Made by a program: the position numbers and the translations under genes
Shown here: piece after piece, positions 1-40,563 of the stretch
How the letters are laid out: the number at the start of each line of letters is the position of its first letter
Position numbering within the stretch: position 1 is the first letter of the stretch
The notes under the pieces: model-generated
Databases searched by the model: none
What the model was told of the DNA's origin: nothing
Seen by the model: the letters and a program-made list of their open reading frames with translations, nothing else
Assembly: GCA_030263595.1 (NCBI GenBank)
Contig: SZPG01000034.1
Span: 1 to 49,697, forward strand
Direction of reading: 5' to 3'
DNA length: 49,697 nucleotides
Source of the DNA: Chloroflexi bacterium CFX6
Lineage (GTDB): Bacteria > Chloroflexota > Anaerolineae > Anaerolineales > Villigracilaceae

Positions 1-36
1 GAGCGGTATAATGACGGAAGAGAAAGGCAGGACGAT

Positions 37-237
37 ATGAAGTTTACCGTTGAATACGAACAGGAAGAAGACGGTCGCTGGCTGGCGGAAGTGAAGGAAT
101 TGCCGGGCGTATTGACCTACGGCAAAGACCCGGAGGAAGCCGTTGCCCACGCGCAGGCATTGGCGTTGCGCGTCATTGCGGATCGTCTTGAGAACGGCGA
201 AGCGATTCCCGCGCTGATTTCAGCAATGTCAAAATGA
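37..237 (+). CDS. HicB-like antitoxin domain protein (orphan)
   Basis: This 66-residue protein has the HicB/UPF0150 pattern: an N-terminal beta strand with a Y-x-E-D-G-W-x-A-x-V core, then 'LPGVLTYGKDPEEAVAHAQ' leading into a helix. In HicAB toxin-antitoxin modules this RNase-H-like fold neutralises the HicA mRNA interferase and often carries a DNA-binding tail. Here there is no C-terminal ribbon-helix-helix or HTH extension. No HicA is visible downstream, because a terminator follows 20 bases after the stop. A hicA gene could lie just before the window, of which only 36 bases are present. A purine-rich stretch precedes the ATG. Function as an antitoxin is inferred from the family only. Confidence 0.8.
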   Translation: MKFTVEYEQEEDGRWLAEVKELPGVLTYGKDPEEAVAHAQALALRVIADRLENGEAIPALISAMSK

Positions 238-257
238 CCAAAAACGACTAAGAATTT

Positions 258-297
258 GTCCCGCAACGGAGCGATGCTCAGGTTGCGGGACTTTTTT
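258..297 (+). terminator. Rho-independent terminator after the HicB-like gene
   Basis: A perfect 10-bp stem (GTCCCGCAAC pairing with GTTGCGGGAC) with a 14-base loop is followed by six T residues. It lies 20 bases after the stop codon of the HicB-like gene. Confidence 0.85.
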
Positions 298-310
298 ATA
301 TTTGCCCAGC

Positions 311-344
311 GCCCTCACCCTGCCCTCTCCCACAGGGAGAGGGG
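311..344. repeat. GC-rich palindromic dispersed repeat, copy 1
   Basis: The element contains CCCTCTCCC, a short loop and GGGAGAGGG, preceded by CCTCACCCTG. Closely similar copies occur at 2448-2480 and 3083-3120, where they sit inside a reading frame. This copy is intergenic, between the HicB-like terminator and the DGR template repeat. The rest of 298-456 shows no gene that I can recognise. Confidence 0.75.
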
Positions 345-456
345 AATGTGGATGCCAGCCAGGACATCATCCAGCCATCATTAATGCCTCGGCGAGAAAG
401 CCGTAACCTTGTCGCATTTCCGGCGTAGCGCAAGTGTCAGTCTACGCCACAAAATA

Positions 457-582
457 ATGATGTGGGAAGACGCAACCCGAAAACCCCTATTGTTGTTGAA
501 GTTGTTCGGGTTGTTCCTGTTGCGGTTCGCACAGCGGGCATTCCTGTGATTGTTGTTGAACGAGCCGCCGCGCAACACACGA
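457..582 (-). repeat. DGR template repeat (TR)
   Basis: This 126-bp segment matches 2065-2190 base for base except at 20 positions. Read on the minus strand, every one of the 20 is an adenine in this copy and another base in the other copy. It is full of AAC, AAT and AGG codons, the usual make-up of a DGR template. The segment is non-coding: it would encode an Asn-rich stretch with no proper gene around it. The 3' end (minus-strand sense, about 457-490) is adenine-poor and nearly invariant, as expected for the region where mutagenic homing starts. It lies just downstream of avd, so the order is target, RT, Avd, TR. In DGRs, TR RNA is copied with adenine-specific errors and replaces the variable repeat. 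Confidence 0.95.
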
Positions 583-614
583 TTCCTTTGGATGCGCCCT
601 TCACAACGGGAGGT

Positions 615-962
615 TCATCCCGATAGTGACGATTTTTTCCAGCCGCCCAATAATTTTCCGATCTCGGCAACCATTGTTGAAACATGGCGATATTGACCCA
701 TGGTGATCCACTTCCATTTTTCGCACAATCGCAAATACAGGCGAACCTTTCTCAATTCCGCATCCGCCGCGCGTAGTTTCTCGACCCTTAACGCGCCGCG
801 CAGGGAATTTGCTTCGATGATCGATTCCTGAAAATTCAACGCGGCATCTTGCAGTCGCCGCGTAACGACGAACCGCTGACTGCGGGGAAAATTCCCAGCC
901 AGCGGCAACAGCCAGGATATGAAATCATAGGTTTTCGTAAAGATGATCATTTCTTCAGCCAT
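615..962 (-). CDS. avd: DGR accessory variability determinant (Avd), four-helix bundle protein
   Basis: This is a small, all-helical, basic protein of about 115 residues. It sits between a DGR reverse transcriptase and its template repeat, the usual place for Avd. In studied DGRs Avd forms a pentameric barrel that binds the RT and the template RNA and is needed for cDNA synthesis. I chose the ATG at 962 because AAAGGAG lies just upstream and because the start overlaps the last codons of the RT gene (TATGGCTGA), a typical translational-coupling arrangement. A longer frame starting at 995 would add 11 residues inside the RT gene and lacks such a signal. The central helix 'RRLQDAALNFQESIIEANSL' and the later Arg/Lys-rich helices fit the family. 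It appears intact. Confidence 0.88.
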   Translation of the reverse strand: MAEEMIIFTKTYDFISWLLPLAGNFPRSQRFVVTRRLQDAALNFQESIIEANSLRGALRVEKLRAADAELRKVRLYLRLCEKWKWITMGQYRHVSTMVAEIGKLLGGWKKSSLSG

Positions 963-2007
963 ACAAATTCTCCTTTGCCAGCAATCCAAATTCATTGAGC
1001 ATGGAACGCCTCAAACCAAAGGTATCCCCATAATGAACATGATTGATCCAGCCTTGTATTGAGGCATTGATCTTTGCGCCCGAAGCAATCTTCATCAAAT
1101 GGAGTAACTTCCTGCGAAACGCATAGCCTTTTCTGGATTTGAGACGCCGATGTTGAGGAAAGATTTGAAAACCAAGAAACGGAATTCCCTCTGTGACAGG
1201 CTTGGGGTACGCGCTTCCTTCGTGCAAGGTCAAACGGAACTTTTCCAATCGTTCGAGAATCCTTTCCCGCCAATACAGTAATTCAAGTTTGCTATCGCTG
1301 AACAATAGGAAATCGTCCACATAGCGGACATAGCCGCGGCAGCCCAATTCGCGCTTGATAAACTGATCGAAGGGGTTGAGGTAACAATTCGCCCACCATT
1401 GCGAAGTGAGATTGCCGATCGGCAGTCCGCGCGGTCTTTGCGAGGCGAACAAATCGTCGTGGGGGAAATAGACCATTTCGTATTCCTCCGATAGTACGCC
1501 GCGCCCGCTGGCAAGGATCCTATCCACGAGCCACATCACGCTTTCATCGGGCAGCATCTTCGCAAGTATTTCGCGCAGGACGGCATGGTCAATGCTCGGA
1601 AAGAACTGCTTTACATCGCATTGCAAGACATACTTGTATCGCCGCGCAAATTGCGTACAGCGATCCAAAGCGCGGTGCGTGCCTTTTCCCGTTTGGTTGG
1701 CGTAACTATCGGGAATGAACAGCCTTTCGAAATATGGAACGGTAATATTGCACAGGGCATGATGCACGACACGGTCACGAAACGGCGCGGCGGAGATCAG
1801 ACGTTTCTTGGGCTCATGAATGTGAAAACTTGTGTATCCGCCTGGCTGGTAGGTTTGTTCCTCCAGTTCCTTTTGCAGTTCGAGCAGGTTATCGGCAAGG
1901 AGCATTTCAAATGAGGCGGTGGCGCCGCGCCCGCGTTTGCCGCGCGAGGCATTTTGATATGCCAGGCTTATGTTTCTCCATTCACATAACCGATCCTGTA
2001 GATCCAT
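955..2007 (-). CDS. DGR-type reverse transcriptase
   Basis: This 350-residue reverse transcriptase has the palm motifs in order: 'CDVKQFFPSID' with the first catalytic Asp near 131, LPIGNLTSQ at about 195-203, and YVDD at 229-232. The IGNxxSQ form of motif 4 is the hallmark that separates DGR enzymes from group II intron and retron RTs. An N-terminal 'SFHIHEPKKRLISAAPFRDRVVHHAL' region (split here by residues of the finger motifs) is also typical. There is no maturase or endonuclease domain, and the length is normal for the family. GGAGGG lies 3 bases before the ATG. It copies the template RNA at 457-582 with errors at adenine and so diversifies the repeat at 2065-2190. The gene appears intact and overlaps avd. 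Confidence 0.97.
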   Translation of the reverse strand: MDLQDRLCEWRNISLAYQNASRGKRGRGATASFEMLLADNLLELQKELEEQTYQPGGYTSFHIHEPKKRLISAAPFRDRVVHHALCNITVPYFERLFIPDSYANQTGKGTHRALDRCTQFARRYKYVLQCDVKQFFPSIDHAVLREILAKMLPDESVMWLVDRILASGRGVLSEEYEMVYFPHDDLFASQRPRGLPIGNLTSQWWANCYLNPFDQFIKRELGCRGYVRYVDDFLLFSDSKLELLYWRERILERLEKFRLTLHEGSAYPKPVTEGIPFLGFQIFPQHRRLKSRKGYAFRRKLLHLMKIASGAKINASIQGWINHVHYGDTFGLRRSMLNEFGLLAKENLYG

Positions 2008-2048
2008 AGACCCTCCAAATTAGAATCAGAGATTCAGAGCGCAGAGAT

Positions 2049-3443
2049 TCAGAGTTCAGATTTGATGATGGGGGAAGACGCAACCCGAAAACCCCAAAGG
2101 CTGACGAAGTTGATCGGGAAGCTCCCGAAGCGGTTCGCACAGCGGGCATACCCGAGACTGAGGTTGAACGAGCCGCCGCGCAACACACGAGATTGACCGT
2201 CTTCTGGACCCTGCGGGTCTTTCGTGATTTTGTCTGCCCTGCCTTTGTACTCATCCTCCTTGAACCAATCATTGCACCATTCCCAAACATTGCCAGCCAT
2301 GTCCGCACAGCCATAGGGAGAATCGCCGCTTTGAGCAGGGTCATTGCTGGAAAACTTTCCAACATCTGTTGTATCTCCAATTTTTGATTCGACAGTGTTG
2401 GCTTTCTTTGGATCAAAATCATTTCCCCAGGGGTAGATCAGCGCTTCGCCCTCACCCTGCCCTCTCCCATCGGGAGAGGGTTTCCAACGCGCGGCTTTCT
2501 CCCATTCGGCTTCGGTGGGCAAACGATAGTTCTTCTTCGTTTTCTCACTCAACCACTTGCAATATTCGTTCGCATCGTTCCATGAAACATTCACAACAGG
2601 GTGACTGCCTTTTTCGGCGGGGAACTGGTCGCCGTCCCAGCCTTGAGGCGGTTTGTATTTCGCATCGCGCACAAAAGCCTGATATTCACGGTTCGTAATC
2701 GGGTATTTGCCTATGGAATATTCGGAGAGTTCAACGGTATGCTGAGGTTGTTCCCATCCAACCCATTTTTTCCAATCTTCTCCGCCTTCTTTGATAACTT
2801 GTTGAGCCTGTTCTTTTGTTGTTCCCATCAGGAACTTGCCCGCAGGTATCCTCACCATCTGAGGCTCGAACACCAGCCGCGCGGCTTCGGCGGCGGGAGG
2901 CGTCGGTTGCGGCGCTTCGACGCTGCGCGTCAGCGTGAAATATAGTTTCAGTTCATCGGTGGATAAGCCCGCAAAGTTTGCATCCTTTGTTCCAGGTTTG
3001 TGCTTCATTGTCAAAATTTTTCGCACCGCTGCAATTCCTCGTTGTGAAAGGAAAGGAACGAGGGCAGGCGGCGGCTCGACGCGCCCCTCACCCTTACCCT
3101 CTCCCGAAGGGAGAGGGGATTCGCCTCTTTCCATTTTTCTTTCCTGGGACGATTCGGCGCGGTAGTATTCCTCCAGTTCGCGCAGATAACGCGGCTCATC
3201 CTTCAAGAGCAGGTTATACAGATCGGGATGCGCCGCCTGAATCGCCACCACCTTTGCCAGACGGATCGGTTTGACCTGTCCCTTTAATTTCTCTTTGCGT
3301 TTCTCCGCTAGTTTGGAAAGCATCAGAAACGTATTGACCGTTCGCTTGATCTGGCGCGGGTTGTCGCCTAATCCCTCGGCAAATACCTTGTGGCATTCCT
3401 CGTGGGGCCACTCGCCGCTCAGTCCCTCCACGAATTTTCCCAT
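2049..3443 (-). CDS. DGR target: C-terminal part of a KAP NTPase fused to an FGE-sulfatase domain
   Basis: Residues 1-90 resemble the end of a KAP-family P-loop NTPase, including 'GLGDNPRQIKRTVNTFL'. A Pro-rich linker follows, then an FGE-sulfatase (formylglycine-generating-enzyme fold, C-type-lectin-like) domain at about 195-460, with IPAGKFLMGT, YRLPTEAEWEKAAR and 'CADMAGNVWEWCNDW'. The last 43 residues are the variable repeat. Two palindromic repeats are inserted in frame, at residues 107-119 (linker) and 321-334, the latter between EKAAR and IYPWGND inside the FGE fold. The frame starts at an ATG in mid-domain with no clear ribosome site. It shares its frame with the NTPase fragment at 3552-4265, so I read it as the distal part of one gene broken between about 3440 and 3630. 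Enzymatic FGE activity is not expected; a binding role is inferred from the DGR. Confidence 0.9.
   Translation of the reverse strand: MGKFVEGLSGEWPHEECHKVFAEGLGDNPRQIKRTVNTFLMLSKLAEKRKEKLKGQVKPIRLAKVVAIQAAHPDLYNLLLKDEPRYLRELEEYYRAESSQERKMERGESPLPSGEGKGEGRVEPPPALVPFLSQRGIAAVRKILTMKHKPGTKDANFAGLSTDELKLYFTLTRSVEAPQPTPPAAEAARLVFEPQMVRIPAGKFLMGTTKEQAQQVIKEGGEDWKKWVGWEQPQHTVELSEYSIGKYPITNREYQAFVRDAKYKPPQGWDGDQFPAEKGSHPVVNVSWNDANEYCKWLSEKTKKNYRLPTEAEWEKAARWKPSPDGRGQGEGEALIYPWGNDFDPKKANTVESKIGDTTDVGKFSSNDPAQSGDSPYGCADMAGNVWEWCNDWFKEDEYKGRADKITKDPQGPEDGQSRVLRGGSFNLSLGYARCANRFGSFPINFVSLWGFRVASSPIIKSEL
2065..2190 (-). repeat. DGR variable repeat (VR) at the 3' end of the target gene
   Basis: This 126-bp segment is the partner of the template repeat at 457-582. 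It encodes residues of about 418-460 of the FGE-domain ORF, ending four codons before the stop. Compared with the template there are 20 substitutions affecting 16 codons, all at template adenines: for example Asn codons became Leu, Phe, Ser, Ile or Val, and AGG became GGG or TGG. The flanks (…GTGTGTTGCGCGGCGGC at one end, GGTTTTCGGGTTGCGTC at the other) are identical. The pattern is direct evidence that the DGR has acted at least once. The position matches the ligand-binding face of C-type-lectin-fold DGR targets. Confidence 0.96.
2448..2480. repeat. GC-rich palindromic repeat, copy 2, inserted in the FGE domain
   Basis: The sequence has the same CCTCACCCTG-CCCTCTCCC-loop-GGGAGAGGG layout as at 311-344. 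It falls inside the coding sequence of the DGR target and is translated as KPSPDGRGQGEGEA between two conserved FGE motifs. In ordinary family members these are separated by only a few residues, so this is an in-frame insertion. Confidence 0.8.
3083..3120. repeat. GC-rich palindromic repeat, copy 3, inserted in the linker of the DGR target
   Basis: CCCCTCACCCTTACCCTCTC with its inverted partner GAGAGGGGA, translated as ESPLPSGEGKGEGR. It lies in the low-complexity linker between the KAP and FGE parts, where an insertion should be tolerated. Confidence 0.8.
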
Positions 3444-3551
3444 GTCAGATATTTAATGCCTTCGATGGTGAAATGCGGTTTCCCACTCGCATCCTGTCTG
3501 TCCTTGACATCCTTGTATTTCATCTCGATGCCGCGCGCGATCACATCCTGG

Positions 3552-4265
3552 TCAATGCCGAGGATGAACACACAATCCTGTACATCGAGGAACAGTTTGA
3601 TGGCTTCGGTTGGGGCTGACGTGTTCCTTCACCAATGCCCTGAATGTATCCTGGAACTTTTCAAGAAACTGAATCTGCTCGATATAAACCTTTGTCCGTT
3701 CGCGTTGGATGGCGGTCGCCGCTTCGTCCACATCCTTTGCGACCCCGGATTGCAAACCTTCAACCAATTTGGTCAGCGGCGCTATCCCAGGAATAAAGGA
3801 CAAACTCAGTTGAACAAGACTTTTCGCCGTCACCCCGCCCAGTTTTGCCAGGTCAATTTTTACGCCCCCAACCTTCTCAAGTTCCATTTCACGGTAGAGT
3901 AATGATTGGAGTTTCTCGAACGCCTCCACTGGCCGCCCTTGAGACGCGGCCGTTTCCTTCAACGCAGTCAGGATTCTTAGCAGAAATGCCCGCCACAGCG
4001 TTTCCTCTTTGTCGTACTTCCACGCATCGAACCAGACAATCGTGTAATCTTTGGGCAGCCCTTTGTATTCGCTGTCAGGAATCCCATTCTGTACCATTCT
4101 CATGAGAGAAGTCTTGCCCGAACCCCATCCGCCGAACACGCCGATGGTCAATGGCGTGTTTCCCGTCTGGATGATGTCCGCCAGGGTTTCGACGTAAGGC
4201 GTGAAATCGAGCGCGTCCTTTTCGGTCGGCTGGTCGTTGACGATGTAGGTTTTTGAGTCGGTCAT
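3552..4265 (-). pseudogene. KAP-family P-loop NTPase, N-terminal part, disrupted before Walker B
   Basis: The N-terminus 'DIIQTGNTPLTIGVFGGWGS' leads into the Walker A motif GGWGSGKTS at about 45-53; TIVWFDAWKYDKEETLWRAF follows, a KAP signature. KAP NTPases are membrane-associated or conflict-system ATPases. The frame is normal up to 'FRALVKEHV' and then becomes nonsense. In another frame, PTEAIKLFLDVQDCVFILGI continues the family pattern, but the strand that should carry the Walker B aspartates (hydrophobic-DDLDRC) is missing at about 3625. A second gap follows 'FTIEGIKYL' near 3450, where the KAP stretch before the FVEGL of the downstream ORF is missing. After both losses the reading frame returns to that of 2049-3443. 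So one KAP-FGE gene carries two small deletions, or the assembly does. Confidence 0.8.
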
Positions 4266-4293: not shown

Positions 4294-4673
4294 TCAAAGA
4301 CCGAAATATTGCTTTACAACCAATAGAAACTCATCTGCCCATTCAAACGACTCGCGCGCTTCCTCATCTGTCACGCTGCTTTCCTCACCGTAATGACCCG
4401 TCTCACGGCGTCTCTCTGCGATGATGAGACGGCGATGGTATTTGGGTCAAGAATTTGAGACTTTGCAAACTCTTTTCCAAATGCCGCCATGACGGCAGAA
4501 TGGCTTGAAAATTGCAAACCTTTCGAGAAAAGAAGCGCCTCAGTCAGGTAGAAGATCGTGTAATAAGACTGCGCGGCAGAATAATTGAAAAATCCCTTGT
4601 CAAGCAATACCTTGGCAGCCTGATGACTTTCGTCCGCGCGGTCAATAAGTATCTGAATCTGCGGGATACTCAT
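4294..4673 (-). pseudogene. HEPN-domain toxin, frameshifted
   Basis: The first 80 residues are a HEPN-domain protein: 'ADESHQAAKVLLDKGFFNYS' and an AAQSYYTIFYLTEALLF helix, then GKEFAKSQILDP. After that the frame runs into an unrelated tail ending at 4371. Adding one base at the AAA run near 4440 restores a continuous frame ending at 4294 with RRRETGHYG, an R-x4-H active-site-like motif, and a 'DEEARESFEWADEFL' closing helix that fits the family. HEPN proteins paired with MNT proteins are RNase toxins. It overlaps the MNT gene upstream by 4 bases. Either the toxin is inactivated by a one-base loss or the base was missed in a homopolymer. Confidence 0.8.
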
Positions 4674-4993
4674 ACACTTACCGCATCCCTGCGAACATTG
4701 AGCATAAACGGCATCTCACTTTCAGAATAACGTTTGTCGGAAACGTAATGACACATGATGACAACATCATATTCCAGACATAGTGAAGCTACGAACTCTA
4801 TGGAGCGGTTTTCGACGTCTCTGGTATTAAATTCCCCGTTTAACACAACCATCACATCAATATCCGAATCGGGCAGGCGTCCCTCACCGCGCGCGAACGA
4901 GCCGAAGAGGTACACGGCTTTCAACTGGTCACCGTGAATCTTGGTCAGTCCTTTTTTTAGTTCACGCAATATTTTTTTGATGTTGGCAGGCAT
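4670..4993 (-). CDS. MNT-type nucleotidyltransferase antitoxin
   Basis: This 107-residue minimal nucleotidyltransferase has the signature 'VYLFGSFARGEGRLPDSDID' (GSF-A-RG then D-x-D) and a third acidic position in VVIM. MNT proteins of this type neutralise HEPN toxins, in studied cases by AMPylating the toxin. It overlaps the HEPN gene by 4 bases (ATGA), so the two are translationally coupled. The gene looks intact. It lies directly upstream of the DGR target on the same strand, but a functional link to the DGR is not shown. Confidence 0.88.
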   Translation of the reverse strand: MPANIKKILRELKKGLTKIHGDQLKAVYLFGSFARGEGRLPDSDIDVMVVLNGEFNTRDVENRSIEFVASLCLEYDVVIMCHYVSDKRYSESEMPFMLNVRRDAVSV

Positions 4994-5012: not shown

Positions 5013-5111
5013 TTATACACCGATGGTCAACGGCGCGTCCCCCGTCTGAATGATCTGCTCCGGGTCGAACCTCTCCGCGATGTGTTTCGCAATGGCGCGG
5101 ATGGTCTTCAT
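5013..5111 (-). pseudogene. Chimeric gene scrap: nucleotidyltransferase start joined to KAP N-terminus
   Basis: The 32-codon frame begins 'MKTIRAIAKHIAERFDPEQI', a standard opening of MNT nucleotidyltransferases (normally followed by ILFGSYARG). It then switches to IQTGDAPLTIGV, nearly the same as IQTGNTPLTIGV at the start of the KAP gene, and stops. The DNA from about 5021 to 5050 resembles 4141-4170. The junction falls at a shared Ile-Ile, which suggests recombination through microhomology. It is too short to be functional. Confidence 0.55.
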
Positions 5112-5303
5112 CGGGATGCGTTTGCGTTTGTCGAGCGGCGGGACCCGGAACACGGATGGCGTTGCCACGTTCGTATTATACGTGATTTTGCATGGCTGCC
5201 CGTCCGCCCCACCGCCCGGTATTCCCCCGAAAACCGCCCAACCAAAAACGCCCTCCGCATGGAGGGCGTTGGTATAATACCGCTTCGGGTACCCTGTCGC
5301 CTG

Positions 5304-5386
<83 letters not shown>

Positions 5387-6628: not shown

Positions 6629-8395
6629 ATGGCATACGCAATCAAGAAATGGGATCTTGCGCAACTCTTTCCCGGTTTCGACAGCCCCGAACTGCAAGCC
6701 GCGTTCGATAACGTGGAGGAGCAGGTCGCGTCGTTCGAGGGCGCGCGGGACAAACTCAAACCCGACATGGACGCTGGCACGTTCCTCGATGTGGTGCGCG
6801 CCTCCGAAGCGACGACCCGCATCGTGAACAGGATCTACGTCTTCGCCGAACTTTCCTTTGCCGAGAACACGCAAAACCAGAACGCGCAAAGCCTGATGGG
6901 ACGCGTCCAGCAGTTCGCGGCGGAGATGCAGAACCGCACGCTGTTCTTCAGCCTGTGGTGGAAGGAATTGGACGATGCCAACGCCGACCGCCTCATGTCC
7001 GCCTCGGGCGAGTATCGTTATTACCTCGAAGCGATGCGCAAGTTCAAGCCCTACACGCTGGGCGAGGCGGAGGAGAAGATCATCAACATCAAGGACGTGA
7101 CCGGCGCGAACGCGCTCGTCAACCTGTACGAGGCGATCACGAACCGCTACGTCTTCAAACTGGCTGTGAACGGCGAGGTGAAGGAACTGACGCGCGCCCA
7201 GTTGCAACCGTACATCCAGGGACTCGACCCCGACCTGCGCGCCAAAGCCTACCAGGAACTGTACCGGGTCTACGGGGACGACGGTCCGATCCTCGGACAG
7301 ATGTATCAGACGCGCGCCCGCGACTGGCACAACGAAAACATCAACCTGCGGAAGTTCAGGAGCGCCATGTCGGTGCGGAATCTCGTGAACGACATCCCCG
7401 ACGAGGCGGTGGATACCCTGCTCGACGTGGCGAAGAAGAACGCAAAGGTCTTCCACCGTTATTTCAAGTTGAAGGCGAAACACATCGGCGTCGGGAAACT
7501 GCGCCGTTACGACATTTACGCGCCCGTCGCCAAATCGGACAAGGCGTTCGATTTCAGCGACGCCGCCGGGATGGTGCTGGAATCGTTCAACGCCTTCGAC
7601 CCGAAACTCGGCGAACTGGCGCGCCGCGTGTTCGACCAGAACCGTCTCGACAGCGAGGTGCGCAAGGGCAAGCAGGGCGGCGCGTTCTGCGCTTCGATCA
7701 ATCCCGAAGATACGCCCTTCGTGTTGATGAACTACACGGGACGCGCCCGCGACGTGGCGACATTGGCGCACGAACTGGGACACGCCATCCATGCGATGCT
7801 GGCTTCGCATCACAGCGCCTTCACCTTCCACTCGTCTCTTCCCCTCGCCGAAACTGCCTCGACCTTCGGGGAGATGATGCTCACCGAAAAATTGCTCGCC
7901 GCGGAGAGCGACGAAGCCGTGCGCCGCGACATCCTCTTCAAGCAAATGGACGACGCCTTCGCGACCATCCTGCGCCAGATCTATTTCGCGCTCTTCGAAC
8001 GCGAGGCGCACGAGTTGGCGCAGAAGAACGCCACCGTGGACGAGATGTGCGCCGCGTACATGGCGAACCTGCGGGAGCAGTTCGGCGATGCGGTGGAGTT
8101 GAGCGACGAGTTCAAATGGGAGTGGGTGTCCATCCCGCACATTTACGCCGTGCCGTTCTACGTGTACGCTTACGCGTTCGGTCAGTTGCTGGTGTTCTCG
8201 CTCTACCAGCAGTTCAAAGCGGAGGGCGACGCGTTCAAGCCGAAGTATCTCAAGATCCTTTCGGCAGGCGGATCGGAATCGCCCGCACAGATCCTTGCCG
8301 AGGCGGGCGTGGACATCAACTCCGCGCAATTCTGGCAGGGCGGCTTCGACGTGTTGAGCCGCATGGTGGACGAGTTGGAAAGCCTGCCCGTGTAG
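6629..8395 (+). CDS. pepF: M3-family oligoendopeptidase F
   Basis: This 588-residue zinc metallopeptidase carries the thimet-oligopeptidase motif HELGHAIH at about 381-388, with the third ligand expected in the following AETASTFGEMM helix. The M3 family cleaves short peptides in the cytoplasm. AGGAGACATC stands directly before the ATG at 6629. A longer frame beginning inside ychF has no such support and would cross the intergenic gap. The stop is 5 bases before tmk, so the two are probably cotranscribed. Confidence 0.93.
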   Translation: MAYAIKKWDLAQLFPGFDSPELQAAFDNVEEQVASFEGARDKLKPDMDAGTFLDVVRASEATTRIVNRIYVFAELSFAENTQNQNAQSLMGRVQQFAAEMQNRTLFFSLWWKELDDANADRLMSASGEYRYYLEAMRKFKPYTLGEAEEKIINIKDVTGANALVNLYEAITNRYVFKLAVNGEVKELTRAQLQPYIQGLDPDLRAKAYQELYRVYGDDGPILGQMYQTRARDWHNENINLRKFRSAMSVRNLVNDIPDEAVDTLLDVAKKNAKVFHRYFKLKAKHIGVGKLRRYDIYAPVAKSDKAFDFSDAAGMVLESFNAFDPKLGELARRVFDQNRLDSEVRKGKQGGAFCASINPEDTPFVLMNYTGRARDVATLAHELGHAIHAMLASHHSAFTFHSSLPLAETASTFGEMMLTEKLLAAESDEAVRRDILFKQMDDAFATILRQIYFALFEREAHELAQKNATVDEMCAAYMANLREQFGDAVELSDEFKWEWVSIPHIYAVPFYVYAYAFGQLLVFSLYQQFKAEGDAFKPKYLKILSAGGSESPAQILAEAGVDINSAQFWQGGFDVLSRMVDELESLPV

Positions 8396-8400
8396 GTCCC

Positions 8401-9021
8401 ATGTTCATCACGCTCGAAGGTCCCGAAGGCTCCGGCAAGACGTCCCACATCCCTTACCTCGTGGAATACCTCCGCGAGAAGGGACGCGTCGTATTTCCTA
8501 CGCGCGAACCGGGCGGCACGTCCATCGGGGAGCAGATACGGGAGATCATCCACGACCTGAAGAACGTGGAGATGCACCCGCGCGCCGAGACGCTCCTCTA
8601 CCAGGCGGCGCGCGCCCAGATCGTGGAACAGGTTATCAAGCCGCGTCTCGCGGACGGGGGGATCGTCGTCTCGGACCGATACTATGACTCCACGATTGCC
8701 TATCAGGGCTACGGTCACCAGCAGGACCTCGAGCAGATCCGCGCGCTGGTGAGGTACGCGACGGGAGGCTTGGTCCCGGACCTGACCATCCTGCTGGACG
8801 TGGACGTGGAGGAAGGGCTGAGGCGAAAGAAGAAGGATAACGAATGGAACCGCATGGACGCGTATACGGTGGAGTTCCACCAGCGCGTCCGCGCGGGGTA
8901 TTTGGAGATGGTCGGGCAGGACCCGCATCGCTGGGTGGTCGTTGATGCAGGGCGGAAGTGGGAATCCGTGCAGGAGGAGTTGCGGAGGGTGATCGTGGAA
9001 CGATTGCAGGCCGGTAACTGA
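8401..9021 (+). CDS. tmk: Thymidylate kinase
   Basis: This 206-residue enzyme phosphorylates dTMP to dTDP. It shows the P-loop GPEGSGKTS at 8-16, the 'REPGGTSIGEQIR' substrate loop, and the SDRYYDSTIAYQG motif with the Asp-Arg pair. The length is typical. It starts 5 bases after the pepF stop. The lid region has 'RRKKKDNEWNRMD', basic as in other bacterial TMKs. The frame is intact. Confidence 0.95.
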   Translation: MFITLEGPEGSGKTSHIPYLVEYLREKGRVVFPTREPGGTSIGEQIREIIHDLKNVEMHPRAETLLYQAARAQIVEQVIKPRLADGGIVVSDRYYDSTIAYQGYGHQQDLEQIRALVRYATGGLVPDLTILLDVDVEEGLRRKKKDNEWNRMDAYTVEFHQRVRAGYLEMVGQDPHRWVVVDAGRKWESVQEELRRVIVERLQAGN

Positions 9022-9058
9022 ACGCCAAAGCGGATTTTTCTTGCTGTATAATGTTTTC

Positions 9059-9229
9059 ATGCCGCGCGCAAGTGAATTCCTTGGTATTGTCGTTTACATG
9101 TATTGCCACGATCACATGCCTCCGCATTTCCATGCAGGGTATAAGGAAAAACTCGAAGAAGGCGGGGCAGCCGTCCCGCAGGAAAGAGGCGAACATGTCC
9201 GAAGAGGAGACCTGGGTTCCCGGCACTAA
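9059..9229 (+). pseudogene. DUF4160-type protein, truncated remnant
   Basis: The first 28 residues match the opening of DUF4160 proteins: SEFLGIVVYMYCHDHMPPHF with the HFHAGY end of the motif. These are small proteins often paired with DUF2442 in toxin-antitoxin-like cassettes. After KEKL the family pattern is lost and the frame runs on into the ribosome-binding region of the next gene, overlapping it. No partner gene is visible. I read it as the leftover 5' end of a deleted gene; a functional 56-residue protein cannot be excluded. Confidence 0.5.
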
Positions 9230-9698
9230 ATCCGAGTTGATGTCCGCCATCGAGCAGGAATGGAATCTGCTCATGGAGGTCGTGTCGAAACTGGATGAGG
9301 CGAAGATGACGACGCCGGATGAAGGCGGGTGGAGTCCGAAGGACAACCTGGCGCATCTGACGGAATGGATGAACGTGCTGATGGGGTATCATCTCGACCG
9401 CCGCCCAGCCCACGAGGTTCTCGGCGTTTCCGAGGATGTGACGAGGGACTGGGACATGGAAGTCATCAATCCCGTGTTGTTCGAACGCAACAAGGATCGT
9501 TCGACGGAGGACACGCTGGCGGAGTTGAAACGCGTGTACGCCGAACTGGTGAAGAAACTCGAAGCCGCGCCGTTCGAGGATTTGCTCGCGCCGCGTCACG
9601 CGGACGACCCGCAGAAACGCCCCGTACTGCTGTGGGTTTTGGGGGATACAACCAATCACTTCGCGGAGCATCGCGCGGCGATCGAAAAAGCGTTGTAG
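9195..9698 (+). CDS. ClbS/DfsB-like four-helix bundle protein
   Basis: This 167-residue protein has the DinB/DfsB-like pattern: an N-terminal helix 'ELMSAIEQEWNLLMEVVSKL', GGWSPKDNLAHLTEWMN, a central PVLFERNKDRSTEDTLAEL block and a closing TTNHFAEHRAAIE with His residues. ClbS from the colibactin cluster hydrolyses colibactin, and relatives are widespread with unknown roles. AGGAAAGAGG precedes the ATG at 9195; earlier in-frame starts fall in the DUF4160 remnant. It is probably monocistronic. Confidence 0.78.
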   Translation: MSEEETWVPGTKSELMSAIEQEWNLLMEVVSKLDEAKMTTPDEGGWSPKDNLAHLTEWMNVLMGYHLDRRPAHEVLGVSEDVTRDWDMEVINPVLFERNKDRSTEDTLAELKRVYAELVKKLEAAPFEDLLAPRHADDPQKRPVLLWVLGDTTNHFAEHRAAIEKAL

Positions 9699-9746
9699 TG
9701 TTATACTTCCGCGCATCTCGATCATTTTCCCCGGAGGAGACGTCCC

Positions 9747-10418
9747 ATGGAATTCGATATCAACAGTATTTCGGCCGTTCTTGGCGTGCTGGGCGCGTAT
9801 TTCGCGATCCTGCTCGTGTTGTCGGTCAGCGTGGAAACCATCCTTGAACCGTTTTCATTTTTCAAGGGCTTGCAAAAACAAGCCAACCCGGACGACGTGG
9901 TGAAGTCGGTGCAGGAGTGGCTCCCCGAAGGGTCGGGCGAAGCGGCAAAGGTGGTCGCCATCCAGGCGATCGCCGAAAAGACCCGCACCGACCTGGCGCA
10001 ACTGGAAAGGAAAGCGACGGATGTGGCGACGAACGCGGAGGAAACGTTGAAACAGTTGGGGCTGGGCGAACAGGTGGATATCGAGAAGAAGAAGGTCGCC
10101 ATCAAACTCGCCGCCCTGCGCGAGCGCTACGCCGCCAGCCAGAGGCAGCGCATCACGATCCTGCGCACGCTTTCCGGGATCATCGGCATTGCCATCGCCT
10201 TTGCCCTGCAGATCAACACCTTCGACATCCTGGGGTCGTTCTTCTCGGCGGACGTGGCGCGCACGCTTTCCTCGCCTGCGGGACAGTTCGGCGGCATCGT
10301 CATCACGGGACTTGCGGCAAGCGCCGGCAGTTCCTTCTGGCACGACATGCTCGGACGCGTCCGCAACATCAAGGACACGGTCAAGCAGGTGGAGAAGGCT
10401 GTCAGCAGGCAAGAGTAA
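9747..10418 (+). CDS. Conserved membrane protein with coiled coil
   Basis: I do not recognise this 223-residue protein. It has a membrane segment at about 8-28, a long charged helical stretch at 60-135 likely to form a coiled coil, and two hydrophobic stretches near 142-160 and 180-198. A basic tail follows. The order suggests an anchored protein with a cytoplasmic coiled coil. CGGAGGAGACG gives a strong ribosome site. A terminator follows directly. It has no Cys residues and no enzymatic motif. Confidence 0.75.
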   Translation: MEFDINSISAVLGVLGAYFAILLVLSVSVETILEPFSFFKGLQKQANPDDVVKSVQEWLPEGSGEAAKVVAIQAIAEKTRTDLAQLERKATDVATNAEETLKQLGLGEQVDIEKKKVAIKLAALRERYAASQRQRITILRTLSGIIGIAIAFALQINTFDILGSFFSADVARTLSSPAGQFGGIVITGLAASAGSSFWHDMLGRVRNIKDTVKQVEKAVSRQE

Positions 10419-10428
10419 CGAAATCGAA

Positions 10429-10466
10429 GAACCGCTCCTCGAAAAGAGGGGCGGTTCATTTTTCGG
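10429..10466 (+). terminator. Rho-independent terminator
   Basis: GAACCGCTCCTC and GAGGGGCGGTTC form a stem around a GAAAA loop, followed by a T run, just after the stop of the membrane protein gene. Confidence 0.85.
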
Positions 10467-10484
10467 ACTTTTGGCTGGTCCTGT

Positions 10485-10865
10485 TTACTCCTCGCCCCCC
10501 GCGTCCCCACCCAGATCGGGGATCGCCTTTTCGATCTCTTCGGGGCTTTGACCCTTTTCCAGGCGGTCCACCACTTCGTCGAATTCGGGAGGCAGTTCCT
10601 CGCCCATTTCCTTTCCCATTTTCCGCATCATCCTGCCCATTGCTTTGGGGTCGTCCTCCAAGCCTTCGAATCCGCTGAAATCGTCCGTCATGGATTCCAC
10701 GCGGCTCTCCTCGGAGCGGGCGATGCGCACCTTCGTCATGCGGCGGCGGACGTTTTTGCTTCCGCAATGCGCGCATTTGACGGCCTTCCTGCCGTATTCG
10801 GCGAAGGTGAGAAATACGTCGAATCGCTGGTCGCAGTCGTTACAAATAAAGTCGTAGGTGGGCAT
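10485..10865 (-). CDS. FmdB-family zinc-ribbon protein
   Basis: This 126-residue protein opens with the FmdB zinc ribbon: MPTYDFICNDCD (CxxC), then VKCAHCGS (CxxC) at about 30-35, followed by basic 'KNVRRRM'. The C-terminal half is acidic, with GRMMRKMGKEMGEELPPEFD, as in many family members. FmdB was named as a putative regulator; its biochemical role is not settled. It is convergent with the membrane protein gene and shares the short intergenic terminator region. Confidence 0.85.
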   Translation of the reverse strand: MPTYDFICNDCDQRFDVFLTFAEYGRKAVKCAHCGSKNVRRRMTKVRIARSEESRVESMTDDFSGFEGLEDDPKAMGRMMRKMGKEMGEELPPEFDEVVDRLEKGQSPEEIEKAIPDLGGDAGGEE

Positions 10866-10918
10866 GATTCAATCAATACTCGAAGATGTATCTCTTTCGG
10901 TGTGAGAGGCTTCCTGCG

Positions 10919-11110
10919 TCAGCGCTGGAGAACGTTCAAAACAGCCTGGATAATTTGCGCAACCTGGGTTTGAGAGAGTACTCCCAATTTTCTTATCAAC
11001 CTTTGCTCGGATATCGAACGCACTTGCAAGCCATCCGCGGCGGACGGCTTGGTCAAACCATTTTGAGCGTCAGGGGCAATTCGCACCACCCAGATTTCCC
11101 CCCTCTTCAT
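10919..11110 (-). pseudogene. MazF/PemK-family toxin with internal deletion
   Basis: The 63-residue frame starts MKRGEIWVVRIAPDA, the usual MazF opening, and ends QVRSISEQRLIRKLGVLSQT with a helix, the usual MazF ending. MazF proteins are about 110 residues, so roughly 45-50 residues of the central beta barrel are missing, including the usual RPAVIV and T-S region. The reading frame is preserved through the loss. It overlaps the antitoxin gene upstream by 4 bases. A working endoribonuclease is unlikely. Confidence 0.75.
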
Positions 11111-11367
11111 GGTTCTTCATCCTCGAAGATGAAATCATCGGCATCCAGAGCAGTGAACTCCGTCAAATCGGGATCGGCGGCGTAGTCCGCTTGAAGTTCT
11201 CGCGCGGCAAGCAGCGTTTGGCGACGCTGACGGAAACGCAATTCGCGCTCGATCATCTCACGCACAATCTCTGAAATACTGCGGTTTTCCTCCTCTGCGA
11301 TCATTGCCAGGATCTGGCGCTGGGATTTTTCGAGCAGGATTTGTATTTTTTGCAGTTCCATATACAC
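11107..11367 (-). CDS. Ribbon-helix-helix antitoxin
   Basis: This 86-residue protein begins with a beta strand (MELQKIQILLEKSQRQIL) followed by two helices including 'ENRSISEIVREMIERELRFR', the RHH DNA-binding fold. An acidic tail (ALDADDFIFEDEEP) would bind the toxin. It directly precedes and overlaps the deleted MazF gene, the MazE-MazF order. It probably represses its own promoter. The start could be the first or the third codon (both Met). Confidence 0.82.
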   Translation of the reverse strand: MYMELQKIQILLEKSQRQILAMIAEEENRSISEIVREMIERELRFRQRRQTLLAARELQADYAADPDLTEFTALDADDFIFEDEEP

Positions 11368-11489
11368 ATCCTTTACGGGCAGAAACGCTGCGTATGATTA
11401 TTGCTTGTAACCCTGCGCCTGTCAAGAAAAGCATGAAAGGCTGTTGACCGGCTTCCCCATGGTGCCACCTGCCCGCGACGAAACCCATC

Positions 11490-12557
11490 CTATTTCTTCA
11501 AATATTCCTCCATCGCTTCGAGCAGTTTTTCGATATCTTCCATTTGCGTCTCGCCCATGTGCGCGATGCGGAAGGTCGTCTCCTTGATGGGCCCGTATCC
11601 GCCCGCGATGCGCATCTCGCGCCCCTTGAGGAAGGCGTTGAGTTCGGAGACGTTGATGCCGCGCTCGTTTTTTATGGTCGTGACCGTTTGCGAGCGATAA
11701 CCGGGAGGCGCATACATGGACAGGTCGTGCGCCTCCGCCCAATCCTGCACGCGCTTCGCCATGGCGGAGTGACGCGCAAAACGATTCTCCAGCCCCTCCG
11801 CGAGGATGCGATCGAGTTGGAAGTCGAGGGCGTAGATGAGGGACATGGCTGGCGTGGCGGGGGACGAATCCTTGAGGCGGTGTTTCTCCATGCGGAGGAA
11901 GTCGAAGTACCAGCCGCGATTTTCGACGGTCTCCGCTTTTTTCATGGCGCGGTCCGAGACCGCCCCCAGCGCGAGACCGGGCGGGAGCGCAAGGCATTTC
12001 TGCGAGGAGGTGAGAACCATGTCGAGTCCCCACGCGTCCATTTCGATCTTTGCGCCTCCGAGCGAAGACACGGCGTCCACGAAGATCAGCGTATCGGGCG
12101 CGACGGCGCGCACCGCTTCGGCGATTTCCCGGACGGGATTCTGCATCCCGGTGGAGGTCTCGTTGTGGACGATGGTCAGGGCTTCGAATCCGCCCTTTCG
12201 GACGGTATCAGCCACTCGGTCGGGCGAAGCGGGCGCGTCCCATTCGAAGGACAGTTTCTCCGCTTCTTTTCCGTTCGATATCGCGACCTCGTGCCAGCGA
12301 TCCGCAAACGCGCCGTTGACCACGGAAAGCGCTCGCCTGTTCACAAAGTTGCGGAGGGCGGCTTCCTGCAAACCGGTTCCCGAGGAGGCGGTGAGGAAAA
12401 CGCGGTGCCGGGTGTAGAAAAGTTTCTGCGCCTTTTCAGCGGCGCGGCGATAGATGGCTTCGAATTCCTTGCTTCGATGCGGAAGCATGGGCGCGGTCTG
12501 CGCCTGCAACACCTCGTCGGCGACATCCACCGGACCGGGAACGAACATGCGGGACAT
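11490..12557 (-). CDS. Class V aminotransferase (serine-pyruvate / alanine-glyoxylate type)
   Basis: This 355-residue PLP enzyme has TASSGTGLQEAALRN as the phosphate-binding region, HNETSTGMQNPV, FVDAVSSLGG with the Asp that contacts the pyridine nitrogen, and TSSQKCLALPPGL with the Schiff-base lysine at about 187. This is the signature of archaeal and bacterial alanine-glyoxylate/serine-pyruvate aminotransferases, which interconvert amino groups between alanine or serine and glyoxylate or pyruvate. Exact substrate cannot be told from sequence. CGGAG precedes the start. Confidence 0.9.
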   Translation of the reverse strand: MSRMFVPGPVDVADEVLQAQTAPMLPHRSKEFEAIYRRAAEKAQKLFYTRHRVFLTASSGTGLQEAALRNFVNRRALSVVNGAFADRWHEVAISNGKEAEKLSFEWDAPASPDRVADTVRKGGFEALTIVHNETSTGMQNPVREIAEAVRAVAPDTLIFVDAVSSLGGAKIEMDAWGLDMVLTSSQKCLALPPGLALGAVSDRAMKKAETVENRGWYFDFLRMEKHRLKDSSPATPAMSLIYALDFQLDRILAEGLENRFARHSAMAKRVQDWAEAHDLSMYAPPGYRSQTVTTIKNERGINVSELNAFLKGREMRIAGGYGPIKETTFRIAHMGETQMEDIEKLLEAMEEYLKK

Positions 12558-32351: not shown

Positions 32352-32939
32352 ATGACAGAAAAATTGACTCTCGAGGAACAAAAGACGTTGCTCCGCCTCG
32401 CGCGTGAAGCGATGGAATATGCCGTGCGGGGAAAAGACCTGCCGCCGCTCGACGCCTCCGCCTTGACGCCCAGCCTGCGCGGACACGGCGCGTCGTTCGT
32501 GACGTTGACCATGAACGGTCAGCTACGCGGGTGCATCGGCGCGCTCGAAGCCCGCCAGTCGCTTGCCGAGGACGTGCGCGAACACGCCGTCGCCGCCGCG
32601 CTCGAAGACCCGCGCTTCCCCCCGGTGAGCGAGGACGAATTGAGCGGGATCAATATCGAGGTCTCGCGGCTGACGCGCCCGGTTCCGCTCCAATACAAGG
32701 ACGCGGACGACCTGTTATCCAAACTAAGGCCGCACGTGGACGGCGTCATCCTGAGCGAGGGCTTTCGCCGGGCGACCTTCCTCCCGCAGGTGTGGGAGAA
32801 GATCCCGGACCCGTCCGCGTTCCTCGACAACCTTTGTTACAAGATGGGGGCGAACCCCACCTCATGGCGCGCCAGGCATCTCGAAGTGTTGACGTATCAG
32901 GTGGAGGAATTTTACGAGTCCCCGAACGTTCCGAAATGA
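32352..32939 (+). CDS. AMMECR1-domain protein (AmmeA-like)
   Basis: This 195-residue protein has FVTLTMNGQLRGCIGALEAR, the AMMECR1 core with RGCIG, and later ISxLTRPVPL and a GFRRATFLPQVWEK stretch. AMMECR1 is conserved across life; in bacteria it often neighbours MEMO and a radical SAM protein, neither of which is seen here. Function is unknown. GGAGGGAATC lies upstream of the ATG. Confidence 0.9.
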   Translation: MTEKLTLEEQKTLLRLAREAMEYAVRGKDLPPLDASALTPSLRGHGASFVTLTMNGQLRGCIGALEARQSLAEDVREHAVAAALEDPRFPPVSEDELSGINIEVSRLTRPVPLQYKDADDLLSKLRPHVDGVILSEGFRRATFLPQVWEKIPDPSAFLDNLCYKMGANPTSWRARHLEVLTYQVEEFYESPNVPK

Positions 32940-32979
32940 ACTTCATGTCGTTCGAGGATGAGTAGGGTAAAATCAACGC

Positions 32980-34791
32980 ATGGCTGACAACGTCGTCTTT
33001 CAGGAGGCAATGGACGCCCTGCGCGATGGGAATAAAGCCCGCGCCCGCGAACTGCTTACGGGGCTGATAAAGGACGACCAGAACAATGCCGAGTATTGGG
33101 TCTGGTTGAGCGCCGCGATGGAAACCGCCAAAGAGCGCGTATACTGCCTCCAGACGGCGCTCAAACTGGACCCCGGACATGCCGCCGCCAAACGAGGTTT
33201 GATCCTGCTCGGGGCTTTGCCCGCCGACGAAACCGTACCGCCCTTTTCGATGAACCGTCCGCGCGCCTGGGAGGAAAACCTTTTGCTCGCGCACGAGAAA
33301 CCCAGGCTGAAGGGATGGGCGGCGGTCAGAGCCAGCCCAGTCTTTCGTTTGGGGATCGTCCTGTTGATCATCGGCGCGGTCGCCGGCGGCGCGGCGTTCG
33401 GACTAAGCGTCATTTCCGTCAACCGTAATACGCTTCCTCCCACCTCCACGCCGGGACCCTCCCCCACCTACACATTCACCGTCACCGTCGTCGGAGGCAG
33501 GCCCCAGGCGCAAGCCACAGGCACGCCCGGCGGAATTGCCGATCTCTTCGAGGACGTGAACTACTCCCCCACGCCTTTATACGTGCCGACGGAGCGTTCG
33601 CCGCTCACCTCCGATTTCCTGCTTCGCTTCGACCGCGCGTATAAACAGGGCGACTGGGACGGGGTCATCGCCGCTCTCCAGGGTGTGATCGAAGCCGAGC
33701 CGGACGCGGTCTTTGCCTATTACTACCTCGGCGAAGCGCATCGCTTCAAGGGGGATTTTGGAACCGCGCTGGGATACTACAACAACGCGCTCGAAAAGAA
33801 CGCGGATTTCGGGCCCGCATACGTGGGGATCGCGCGCGTCCGCCTCCAAATTGACCCGAACGCGAACGTCCTGCCGATCCTGAACGACGCGATCCGCCTC
33901 GATCCGAACTTCGGCGAAGCCTACCTCGAGCGAGCCCGCGTCAAAGTGAGGGATAACGACATCCAGGGCGCGATCGCCGACCTGGGCGATGCCTACGAAC
34001 TCCTGCCGGGCTCCCCGCTTGTGTTCTACCATCTTGCGCAGGCGCGTTTGAAGGAGGGCGAATTCGATCTCGCGCTCGACGCGGCGCGACAAGCCGGGGA
34101 AATGGACAGGACCTACCTGCCCACCTATCTCCTGCTCGGTCAGATCCACGCCGCGCTGGGAAATCAGGACGAAGCCATCGAAAACCTGAGCCTCTATTTG
34201 CAATATGAACCGGACGATCCCGCCGCCCGCTTCACGCTGGGAAAACTCCAATTCGAGACCGGCAGTTACGAGGCATCCGTGCAGACAATGGACAGGGTCC
34301 TCGCGGCAGACCGAAACCAGCGCGAAGCGTATCTCTATCGCTTCCTTGCGAACGTCGAACTGGGCAGGGGCGAAGCCGCGAACGAAGATCAGGATCGCGT
34401 CCTCGCTTTTTATCCCGATCTCTTCGAAGCCAACCTCGGATACGTCCGCGCCGAGTCGCTTAACGGACGCAATGGAAACGCCTTCCTGGGTTTGAATAAA
34501 ACCCTTGCGCTCGCGGAAACGGACGAACAAAAGGCGCTCGCCTATTACTGGGCGGCGATCGTCTACGAAGAACGCGACGATCGCAACAACGCCGCGAACA
34601 ATTGGGAACAACTGCTCGAACTCCCCGAAGACTCCATGACCGAGGCAATGCGCGAGACGGCTCGGGAACGCCTGCTCGATCTTCGCACGCCGCTCCCCAC
34701 CCCAACCTCGACTCGCACGCGCGCCCCGACCGTCACGCCCACTTCCACGCGGACGCCCACTCCCACGAGGACAGCGACGCCTGCGCCGTAA
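32980..34791 (+). CDS. Tetratricopeptide-repeat membrane protein
   Basis: This 603-residue protein has an N-terminal TPR-like part (about 5-75), a membrane helix at about 122-147, a Pro/Thr spacer, and at least eight TPR units from about 215 to 560, such as FAYYYLGEAHRFKGDFGTAL and 'LLLGQIHAALGNQDEAIENL'. It ends in a Pro/Thr tail (TPTSTRTPTPTRTATPAP) that may cross the wall. The role is probably protein binding outside the membrane. No enzymatic motif. Confidence 0.85.
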   Translation: MADNVVFQEAMDALRDGNKARARELLTGLIKDDQNNAEYWVWLSAAMETAKERVYCLQTALKLDPGHAAAKRGLILLGALPADETVPPFSMNRPRAWEENLLLAHEKPRLKGWAAVRASPVFRLGIVLLIIGAVAGGAAFGLSVISVNRNTLPPTSTPGPSPTYTFTVTVVGGRPQAQATGTPGGIADLFEDVNYSPTPLYVPTERSPLTSDFLLRFDRAYKQGDWDGVIAALQGVIEAEPDAVFAYYYLGEAHRFKGDFGTALGYYNNALEKNADFGPAYVGIARVRLQIDPNANVLPILNDAIRLDPNFGEAYLERARVKVRDNDIQGAIADLGDAYELLPGSPLVFYHLAQARLKEGEFDLALDAARQAGEMDRTYLPTYLLLGQIHAALGNQDEAIENLSLYLQYEPDDPAARFTLGKLQFETGSYEASVQTMDRVLAADRNQREAYLYRFLANVELGRGEAANEDQDRVLAFYPDLFEANLGYVRAESLNGRNGNAFLGLNKTLALAETDEQKALAYYWAAIVYEERDDRNNAANNWEQLLELPEDSMTEAMRETARERLLDLRTPLPTPTSTRTRAPTVTPTSTRTPTPTRTATPAP

Positions 34792-34956
34792 GCGCAAATA
34801 CAAATCCCTGCCGGAGGGTTGACCGTTCTTCCGGGTTCGACGCGCCAGGCTCAGGCGTATGGTCGAGCCGTCCGGGAGTATGATTAAAATATCGCAGGGG
34901 GCGTTTCAATATCGTGGTGACGCAACAATTTACCGGTTCGAAAAGGAGTATGTGCC

Positions 34957-36579: not shown

Positions 36580-36695
36580 CGCGACTTTCAAGTCGCAACC
36601 CAAAGGCGGCGCTGCGAAGCGTATCGCGTTACAGAATCTTCGCGATCGGGATGGTTTTTGCAAAGTAATACGATAGACCAAAGACCTCACGAATC

Positions 36696-36734
36696 AGACA
36701 GGCTCCAATTTGGTTCGATTGGAGCCTGTCTTTA
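36696..36734 (+). terminator. Terminator between convergent genes
   Basis: AGACAGGCTCCAAT and ATTGGAGCCTGTCT form a perfect 14-bp stem with an 8-base loop and T-rich tail. It could serve both converging genes. A smaller GTAACGCGAC…GTCGC hairpin is at 36580. Confidence 0.75.
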
Positions 36735-36753
36735 TATCTCGACGCGCGGCGGT

Positions 36754-38154: not shown

Positions 38155-38249
38155 ATAAACGCTCCTTCGCCCGAACCGCTAAACCGATGCTGTTCACACC
38201 ATTTCGACAAATCTTGCCTGACCCGGACAGACCCAATCGAAATGAACTG

Positions 38250-38606: not shown

Positions 38607-38618
38607 CAATGACTCCGT

Positions 38619-39956: not shown

Positions 39957-40086
39957 GGGATTCTTTTACCACAAATAACCAGGAATGGAAGCCGTTTGCC
40001 ACTTTGCGCAGGGCGCGTTCTCCCTTCGGCAAGCTCAGGGCAGGCTTACGCGCCCATCGGCGTTTGAGAACGCCGACTATGCACGG

Positions 40087-40557: not shown

Positions 40558-40563
40558 GTTTAT

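Follow-up and report, generated by a model that had tools for sequence, protein, structure and literature searches.

The closest described systems to the locus analysed here are the clade-5D NTPase-CLec diversity-generating retroelements (DGRs), in which a reverse transcriptase (RT) diversifies a C-terminal C-type-lectin (CLec) or FGE domain on NACHT, STAND or KAP NTPases, and which, in the openly available part of Dore et al. 2024, occur in multicellular bacteria including filamentous Chloroflexi and comprise incomplete loci (PMC10907252). The same part of that article describes KAP NTPase targets in filamentous Chloroflexi, puts forward an antigen-sensor idea and proposes activity in trans at the incomplete loci (PMC10907252). 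The DGR studied here lies in a 49,697-nt stretch of Chloroflexi bacterium CFX6 (contig SZPG01000034.1 of assembly GCA_030263595.1; the whole stretch is called the window), and its family resembles clade 5D in its targets and may be a candidate member. Compared with the available text of Dore et al. 2024 (PMC10907252), the present family differs in having a conserved RNA 3' of the template repeat (TR), and cassettes that lack RT and Avd while keeping their own template, as well as fossil-like variable repeats (VRs) in DGR-free orthologues, are new here.

QatA and PifA are KAP NTPases whose KAP module is shared with L067, an intact relative of the window target, which unlike them also has an FGE sensor and a DGR. 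The FGE-like CLec fold is shared with TvpA of Treponema denticola (2y3c), itself a DGR target, in a match that spans the FGE part only and leaves out the NTPase fusion of the window relatives. The DGR of the Bordetella phage BPP-1 has a related RT and Avd (8ub7 and 4dwl, which we take to be BPP-1 entries), and differs from the window in its order target-Avd-TR-RT and its phage tail target. According to the accessible text of PMC12875486, the BPP-1 spacer 3' of the TR is structured, recruits bRT-Avd and primes cDNA synthesis. This spacer may be regarded as the functional parallel of the window RNA.

A TR downstream of the RT was described as early as 2012 in the part of PMC3521204 available, and partial DGRs are counted in that of PMC6642488; neither KAP NTPases as DGR targets nor the order target-RT-Avd-TR is novel. 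The surroundings of the window DGR point to RNA-marked non-autonomous cassettes as a new variant, and among the open PMC papers listed in searches on such cassettes and on DGR RNA, no title or visible abstract opening described the RNA element or minimal cassettes. Judged by its sequence features, the window DGR, which is cell-encoded in a member of the Anaerolineales, is genuine, since it combines an adenine-specific TR/VR pair, a DGR-type RT, Avd, a CLec-fold target ending in the VR and a structured 3' RNA. Taken together, the locus is likely to be a receptor-diversifying DGR that has non-autonomous satellites and whose own receptor is broken.

A conserved RNA 3' of the template repeat

A conserved RNA supported by covariation lies directly 3' of the TR and recurs across the class. 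In well-aligned loci, from which more distant ones deviate, the consensus after the TR has GCCrGAAAUGC and a hairpin, followed by GCCGAGGC with a small hairpin and then by a longer stem, CAAAUAUAAAA and a terminator-like hairpin. In a seed of 15 sequences (alignment A4), 86.7% of the cells are paired, compared with 35-55% in slid versions, and 48 double-sided changes were counted against 16.9 after shuffling (0 of 500 shuffles). Folding of window 240-436 gave a z of -3.9. The covariance model R1 has 59 matches in 81 sources, a number that includes the 15 seed sequences, and finds the RNA at 64 places in 42 of the 152 genomes of the bacterial family (E 1e-3) and in 56 of the 396 genomes of a class sample (E 1e-4). 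Double-sided change is seen in 17 of 20 pairs among the 59 matches, in an alignment fitted to the model. The RNA starts between -5 and 93 nt from the TR end (median 10) in 43 of the 44 matches checked, 44 of the 59 having been compared with the TR/VR pair detector and L150 being without a strict pair. Rfam gave no match at the element and one sub-threshold match elsewhere in window 1-2500; six other loci likewise returned a single sub-threshold match, away from the element.

Among 17 further RNA-positive regions, 7 have a TR/VR pair, 2 have only RT pieces (L166, L167) and 6 hold nothing recognised. The remaining two (L157, L160) have the RNA 95 or 26 nt after an FGE target with no TR between, an arrangement that recombination of VR with TR could have produced.

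Cassettes without a reverse transcriptase

Another contig of the window genome, C20 (locus L005), carries a NACHT-FGE target, Avd, a TR and the RNA (72.7 bits with R1), and no RT match was found on the 13 kb examined, of which 9.2 kb lie 3' of the RNA. Its VR and TR differ at 19 of 31 adenine sites and at none of the 92 others. Since C20 lacks an RT in a genome whose sole RVT_1 match is the window RT, this RT may act in trans; the simplest reading of the sequences, though an evenly balanced call, is that C20 is a non-autonomous cassette served by it, now or formerly. By analogy with the BPP-1 DGR, the TR transcript would be bound by RT-Avd through the 3' RNA structure, which would prime cDNA synthesis; the TR would be copied with errors at adenines, and the cDNA would replace the VR, altering 15 residues of the FGE-fold sensor in the window. 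A third DGR trace in this genome is seen on contig C4 (L010), with an RNA element at 8171-8316 and an N-terminal RT fragment at 7790-8008.

Similar layouts are found elsewhere. In the bacterial family, L123, L124, L127 and L129 have Avd and TR and no complete RT, with 1.7-7.2 kb examined 3' of the RNA; L129 keeps an RT remnant. In L173, from another family of the class, the RT is internally deleted and only its ends are left. Five loci (L153, L154, L158, L159, L162) consist of a target, a gap of 124-171 nt, the TR and the RNA, and no RT or Avd match was found within 4 kb, 3.2-3.7 kb of sequence having been examined 3' of the RNA. L155 retains an RT stub; L165 lacks Avd, only 12 nt of its contig follow the RNA, and what is read in its gap is presumably transposase-like. 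After trimming of the pair ends, non-adenine mismatches number 0/95 in L153, 1/93 in L154, 0/100 in L158, 0/79 in L159, 1/66 in L162, 0/93 in L165 and 0/83 in L155. L126 (genome G107) was withdrawn from the RT-less set, because the contig stops 43 nt past the RNA and an RT may lie beyond, and L130 and L131, which have Avd and FGE and no RT, were left uncounted owing to a missing pair or a contig end.

The targets of these cassettes are TIR-FGE in L153, L154, L158, L159 and L127, KAP-FGE in L162, and NACHT-FGE in L165, L155, L123, L124 and L005. TIR-FGE makes up 5 of 11 scanned RT-less targets and 1 of 30 RT-bearing ones (p 0.003, for groups that were not randomly drawn). The five TIR-FGE proteins are only 42-60% identical to one another, which makes an old origin of the reduced layout probable; repeated loss is also compatible with it. 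A clade without any RT-bearing member (SH-aLRT 99) unites the Avds of C20, L123 and L127, and the targets within it differ, being NACHT-FGE in L005 and L123 and TIR-FGE in L127. This shared Avd clade suggests receptor swapping before one Avd-template module.

In favour of action in trans, a DGR-type RT is present elsewhere in the genome in G000 (the window genome), G002, G020, G028, G043, G047, G055 and G073. A broader interpretation, tentative and just short of an even call, is that the Anaerolineae hold a class of non-autonomous DGRs, made up of an immune-receptor gene, its own template some 125-170 nt further on and the RNA handle without RT or Avd, which are rewritten in trans, and that cells can freeze a receptor by losing the machinery. 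One RT-Avd from a full DGR elsewhere in the genome would then diversify a repertoire of receptors, often TIR-FGE and also KAP- or NACHT-FGE. Should RT-Avd recognise its templates by the RNA handle, any adjoining receptor gene would be open to hypermutation without an enzyme of its own. DGR repertoires would in that case be larger than RT-based surveys count, the covariance model would be a search tool for hidden cassettes, and bacteria would offer a parallel to one mutator serving many receptors.

Several observations weigh against the overall reading of the window DGR and its satellites. Clean adenine-site pairs also occur in RT-less cassettes of G032 (0/63 non-adenine mismatches), G081 (0/93) and G131 (0/93), genomes in which no DGR-type RT was found, G032 having one RVT_1 gene of undefined type; G057 has only an 81-residue DGR-RT fragment and other RVT_1 genes of undefined type. 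Freshness thus needs no resident RT, and fresh pairs were discarded as proof of trans action. The pair detector needs runs of at least 40-50 nt without other mismatches, and pair ends were trimmed before mismatches were counted, which favours fresh pairs; other mismatches reach 5/91 in L123 and, untrimmed, 13 in L136 and 16 in L150. The assembly of G000 is 90.9% complete, and another RT could be missing from it. As for the RNA, a single-sequence minimum-free-energy fold of the window copy fails to reproduce P1 and P2, helix P3 is paired in only 76% of seed cells, and alignment A5 of the 59 matches is fitted to the model. Finally, the break in the window KAP gene, described below, could be an assembly fault.

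That C20 owes its VR to an RT of its own since lost, or to RTs from other cells of the population (structural variants with an intact RT), and not to the window RT, is rather doubtful but deserves serious weight. Intact-RT variants at incomplete loci are reported in the available part of Dore et al. 2024 (PMC10907252), and the window TR (TR1) and the C20 TR (TR2) share no more than 80% identity over 107-110 nt, while the lack of any RT-bearing member in the Avd clade of C20 speaks against this origin.

It is unlikely that the loci simply record a decaying DGR, with a dead target, a C20 that lost its RT by chance, pairs that are frozen relics and nothing happening in trans. Decay would account for the broken KAP gene of the window, for RT remnants beside the templates of C4, L129, L155 and L173, and for L064, whose KAP is cut off by a gene that we take to be transposase-like. 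It also agrees with a tree of 21 KAP-FGE genes, in which the no-DGR label is not clustered (7 changes, with 405 of 500 shuffles as low; L137 was dropped, and L135 is labelled DGR-free though its 3' side runs off the contig). However, the RT and Avd reading frames of the window are intact, non-adenine differences are absent from both the window pair (0/93) and the C20 pair (0/92), and the RT-less layouts common to receptors 42-60% identical, like the RT-less Avd clade extending across two genera, look maintained.

The window retroelement and its broken receptor

The features of the window DGR are collected in Table 1. Its best match in the PDB is 8ub7_A for the RT, and 4dwl and 8ub7_B are matched by the Avd. 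As the initial annotation had stated, the RT carries LPIGNLTSQ, which we take to be a DGR motif, and YVDD, the Avd overlaps it, and the VR terminates the open reading frame (ORF) of the FGE fold. The minus-strand order is KAP piece, KAP-C/FGE ORF with VR, RT, Avd and TR, corresponding to "group 2" of an earlier survey.

Table 1. Features of the retroelement and its target in the window
Feature	Position	Strand	Details
Terminator-like hairpin closing the template RNA (GTCCCGCAAC..GTTGCGGGAC)	259..292	-	sequence; folding
Conserved structured RNA, P1-P4, conserved CAAAUAUAAAA end	291..436	-	model R1 89.9 bits (window RNA included in the seed); covariation
Palindromic repeat copy in the P4 loop of the RNA	297..343	-	repeat family D2
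TR	457..582	-	126 nt, 33 adenines; VR mismatches at adenines only
Avd accessory protein, 126 aa	615..995	-	bAvd PF22296 1.4e-23; overlaps RT
DGR-type RT, 350 aa, intact ORF	955..2007	-	RVT_1 5.1e-16; PDB 8ub7_A E 6.6e-50
KAP C-terminal part and FGE-fold sensor, 464-aa ORF	2049..3443	-	FGE 2.7e-53 (PF03781)
VR	2065..2190	-	126 nt, 3' end of FGE ORF
Damaged KAP segment, two stops in the main frame	3444..3620	-	62-nt and 49-nt deletions
N-terminal part of the KAP NTPase in a 237-aa ORF, cut off by loss of frame	3552..4265	-	KAP_NTPase 1.7e-14, profile 1-123 of 293

The target had been annotated as a KAP NTPase-FGE fusion. Both the FGE sensor and KAP pieces are indeed present, but not as one ORF, the KAP N-terminus being split from the KAP C-terminus-FGE part by the two main-frame stops. 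A structure model of the 464-aa ORF (pLDDT 74.9) has Foldseek matches to ToxD, FGE and TvpA. Relative to the orthologues L141, L143 and L144, 62 nt are missing at a junction near 3608/3609 and 49 nt near 3446/3447, lengths taken from the orthologue alignment (the 77 nt obtained against L067 reflects a 15-nt insertion in L067). The deleted stretches include DDLDRCLP (Walker B) and YLEKI.QL.F, both conserved without exception in the 18 KAP-FGE proteins aligned, a set that excludes the disturbed ORFs of L137 and L142. Without Walker B, the window KAP is not the intact NTPase of a clade-5D target or of a QatA/PifA-like defence protein. With two deletions disrupting the NTPase part, it is probable that the receptor is dead or that only its KAP C-terminus-FGE part is left, although its VR was recently rewritten. 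That the break is an artefact of assembly or strain mixing, and the cell has an intact KAP-FGE gene like that of L067, is quite improbable: the window comes from a 141-contig assembly and the close orthologues L141 and L143 are intact, yet two separate clean deletions are atypical of base-calling errors, and the KAP of L064 is likewise truncated.

The recent rewriting is read from the repeat pair, in which 20 of 33 TR adenines are changed (11 A>T, 6 A>G, 3 A>C) and none of the 93 other sites, so that by this clock the VR is fresh. The 20 mismatches at template adenines were thus correctly described at the outset, while a recount lowers the altered codons from the 16 then given to 15. A plain duplication has nothing in its favour and can be put aside, since all 20 differences fall at template adenines (hypergeometric p 6.7e-15).

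The palindromic repeat D2 (CCCTCTCCC..GGGAGAGGG) lies at 297-343, 2434-2480 and 3071-3117 of the window; two copies are inside the target ORF, and at one of these the window has 33 nt more than L067, inserted in frame. Several relatives also have sequence like D2 in their RNA loops, and such sequence occurs close to the C4 relic.

Receptor genes and retroelements in related genomes

A search of related genomes for KAP-FGE genes with a DGR found intact genes followed by a DGR RT in L067, L071 and L074. The proposal of an NTPase coupled to a diversified sensor is supported by these relatives, whereas a working fusion in the window copy is not supported. Scanned with PADLOC, L067 has a KAP part that resembles QatA (E 1.6e-48) and PifA (5.4e-26), which fits a conflict receptor; in the intact relatives, where the sensor sits on a QatA/PifA-like KAP NTPase, the protein is probably a phage-sensing conflict receptor. 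A full-length structure model of L067 (pLDDT 64) was not used.

Among the matches listed are 17 further near-full-length KAP-FGE genes (L135-L151), and at 13 of these loci the sequence examined shows neither RT nor Avd, and neither TR nor RNA; KAP-FGE was accordingly rejected as a hallmark of DGRs. Of the others, L139 has an RT start at the contig end, L136 and L150 have template and RNA only, and L135 runs off its contig 3'.

The nearest relatives of the window target, L143 (87% identity) and L141, are both among the 13 DGR-free loci. Compared with the window TR, the L143 VR differs at 20 of 33 adenine sites and at 6 of 42 non-adenine third positions, against 91 of 216 third positions directly upstream of the VR (p 0.0003); in L141 the figures are 17/33, 7/42 and 92/214 (p 0.0008). 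The same third-position pattern is shown by the DGR-bearing L139 (7/42) and L067 (9/42) and is not shared by the DGR-free L144 (p 0.69), L140 (0.56) and L138 (0.06), all p values of the seven tests being uncorrected. L141 and L143 are read as carrying putative fossil VRs, written by a DGR that no longer adjoins them. Such repeats in DGR-free orthologues suggest that loss of the mutator is a way to fix a hypermutated receptor. The genome of L143 (G014) has a DGR elsewhere, and a search of it for a remote template returned, besides the VR, a single match (54 nt, 74%), which lies within the VR region of a different target. In the one-contig genome of L141 (G011) the VR matched only itself and no match to the window RT was found; one other RVT_1 gene, of undefined type, is present. 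The left flank of the L141 locus matches window 32731-41521, some 30 kb from the DGR, and a local move of the receptor gene may have taken place in either genome.

RT relatives occur in 45 of the 152 family genomes (E 1e-20 or better), and 22 of 23 RT loci in named records are from Chloroflexota metagenome-assembled genomes, mostly Anaerolineae, the other being from a Phycisphaerae one. From 60 sampled RT places, gene orders were counted at 58 loci whose RT match spans 240 aa or more, the window and L062 included, four shorter RTs dropped and L040-L061 left out as duplicates. VR-RT-Avd-TR was found at 24 loci, at 4 more with a second VR and at 1 with extra repeats; VR-Avd-TR-RT at 10, and at 1 with two VRs upstream; Avd-TR-RT-VR and VR-Avd-RT-TR at 1 each; 16 loci had no detected TR/VR pair. 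On the RT tree, loci of like gene order group together (5 changes, compared with 17.8 after shuffling). The window order, which the initial annotation had thought unusual, is thus real but the commonest in this family, and was dropped as a novelty. FGE was present in all 30 scanned DGR targets, 26 of them NACHT-FGE (counting L088, slightly below the Pfam NACHT cut-off), 2 KAP-FGE, 1 TIR-FGE and 1 FGE only. In L085, a single 1429-aa ORF (8035-12324, minus strand) joins an FGE target (765-1006) and RVT_1 (1149-1364) in frame, with a weak nSTAND3 match.

Upstream of the KAP target, on the minus strand, HEPN and nucleotidyltransferase genes directly adjoin it (window 4371-4993; PADLOC PDC-S09), and a nucleotidyltransferase gene also lies upstream of the C20 target (L005 12878-13246, minus strand); these neighbours are possible toxin-antitoxin pairs. 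Beyond them, a minus-strand frame at 5013-5345 begins like a second KAP N-terminus, is matched in L140 too and is probably the relic of a tandem KAP gene; repeat D3 links 5017-5064 with 4138-4185.

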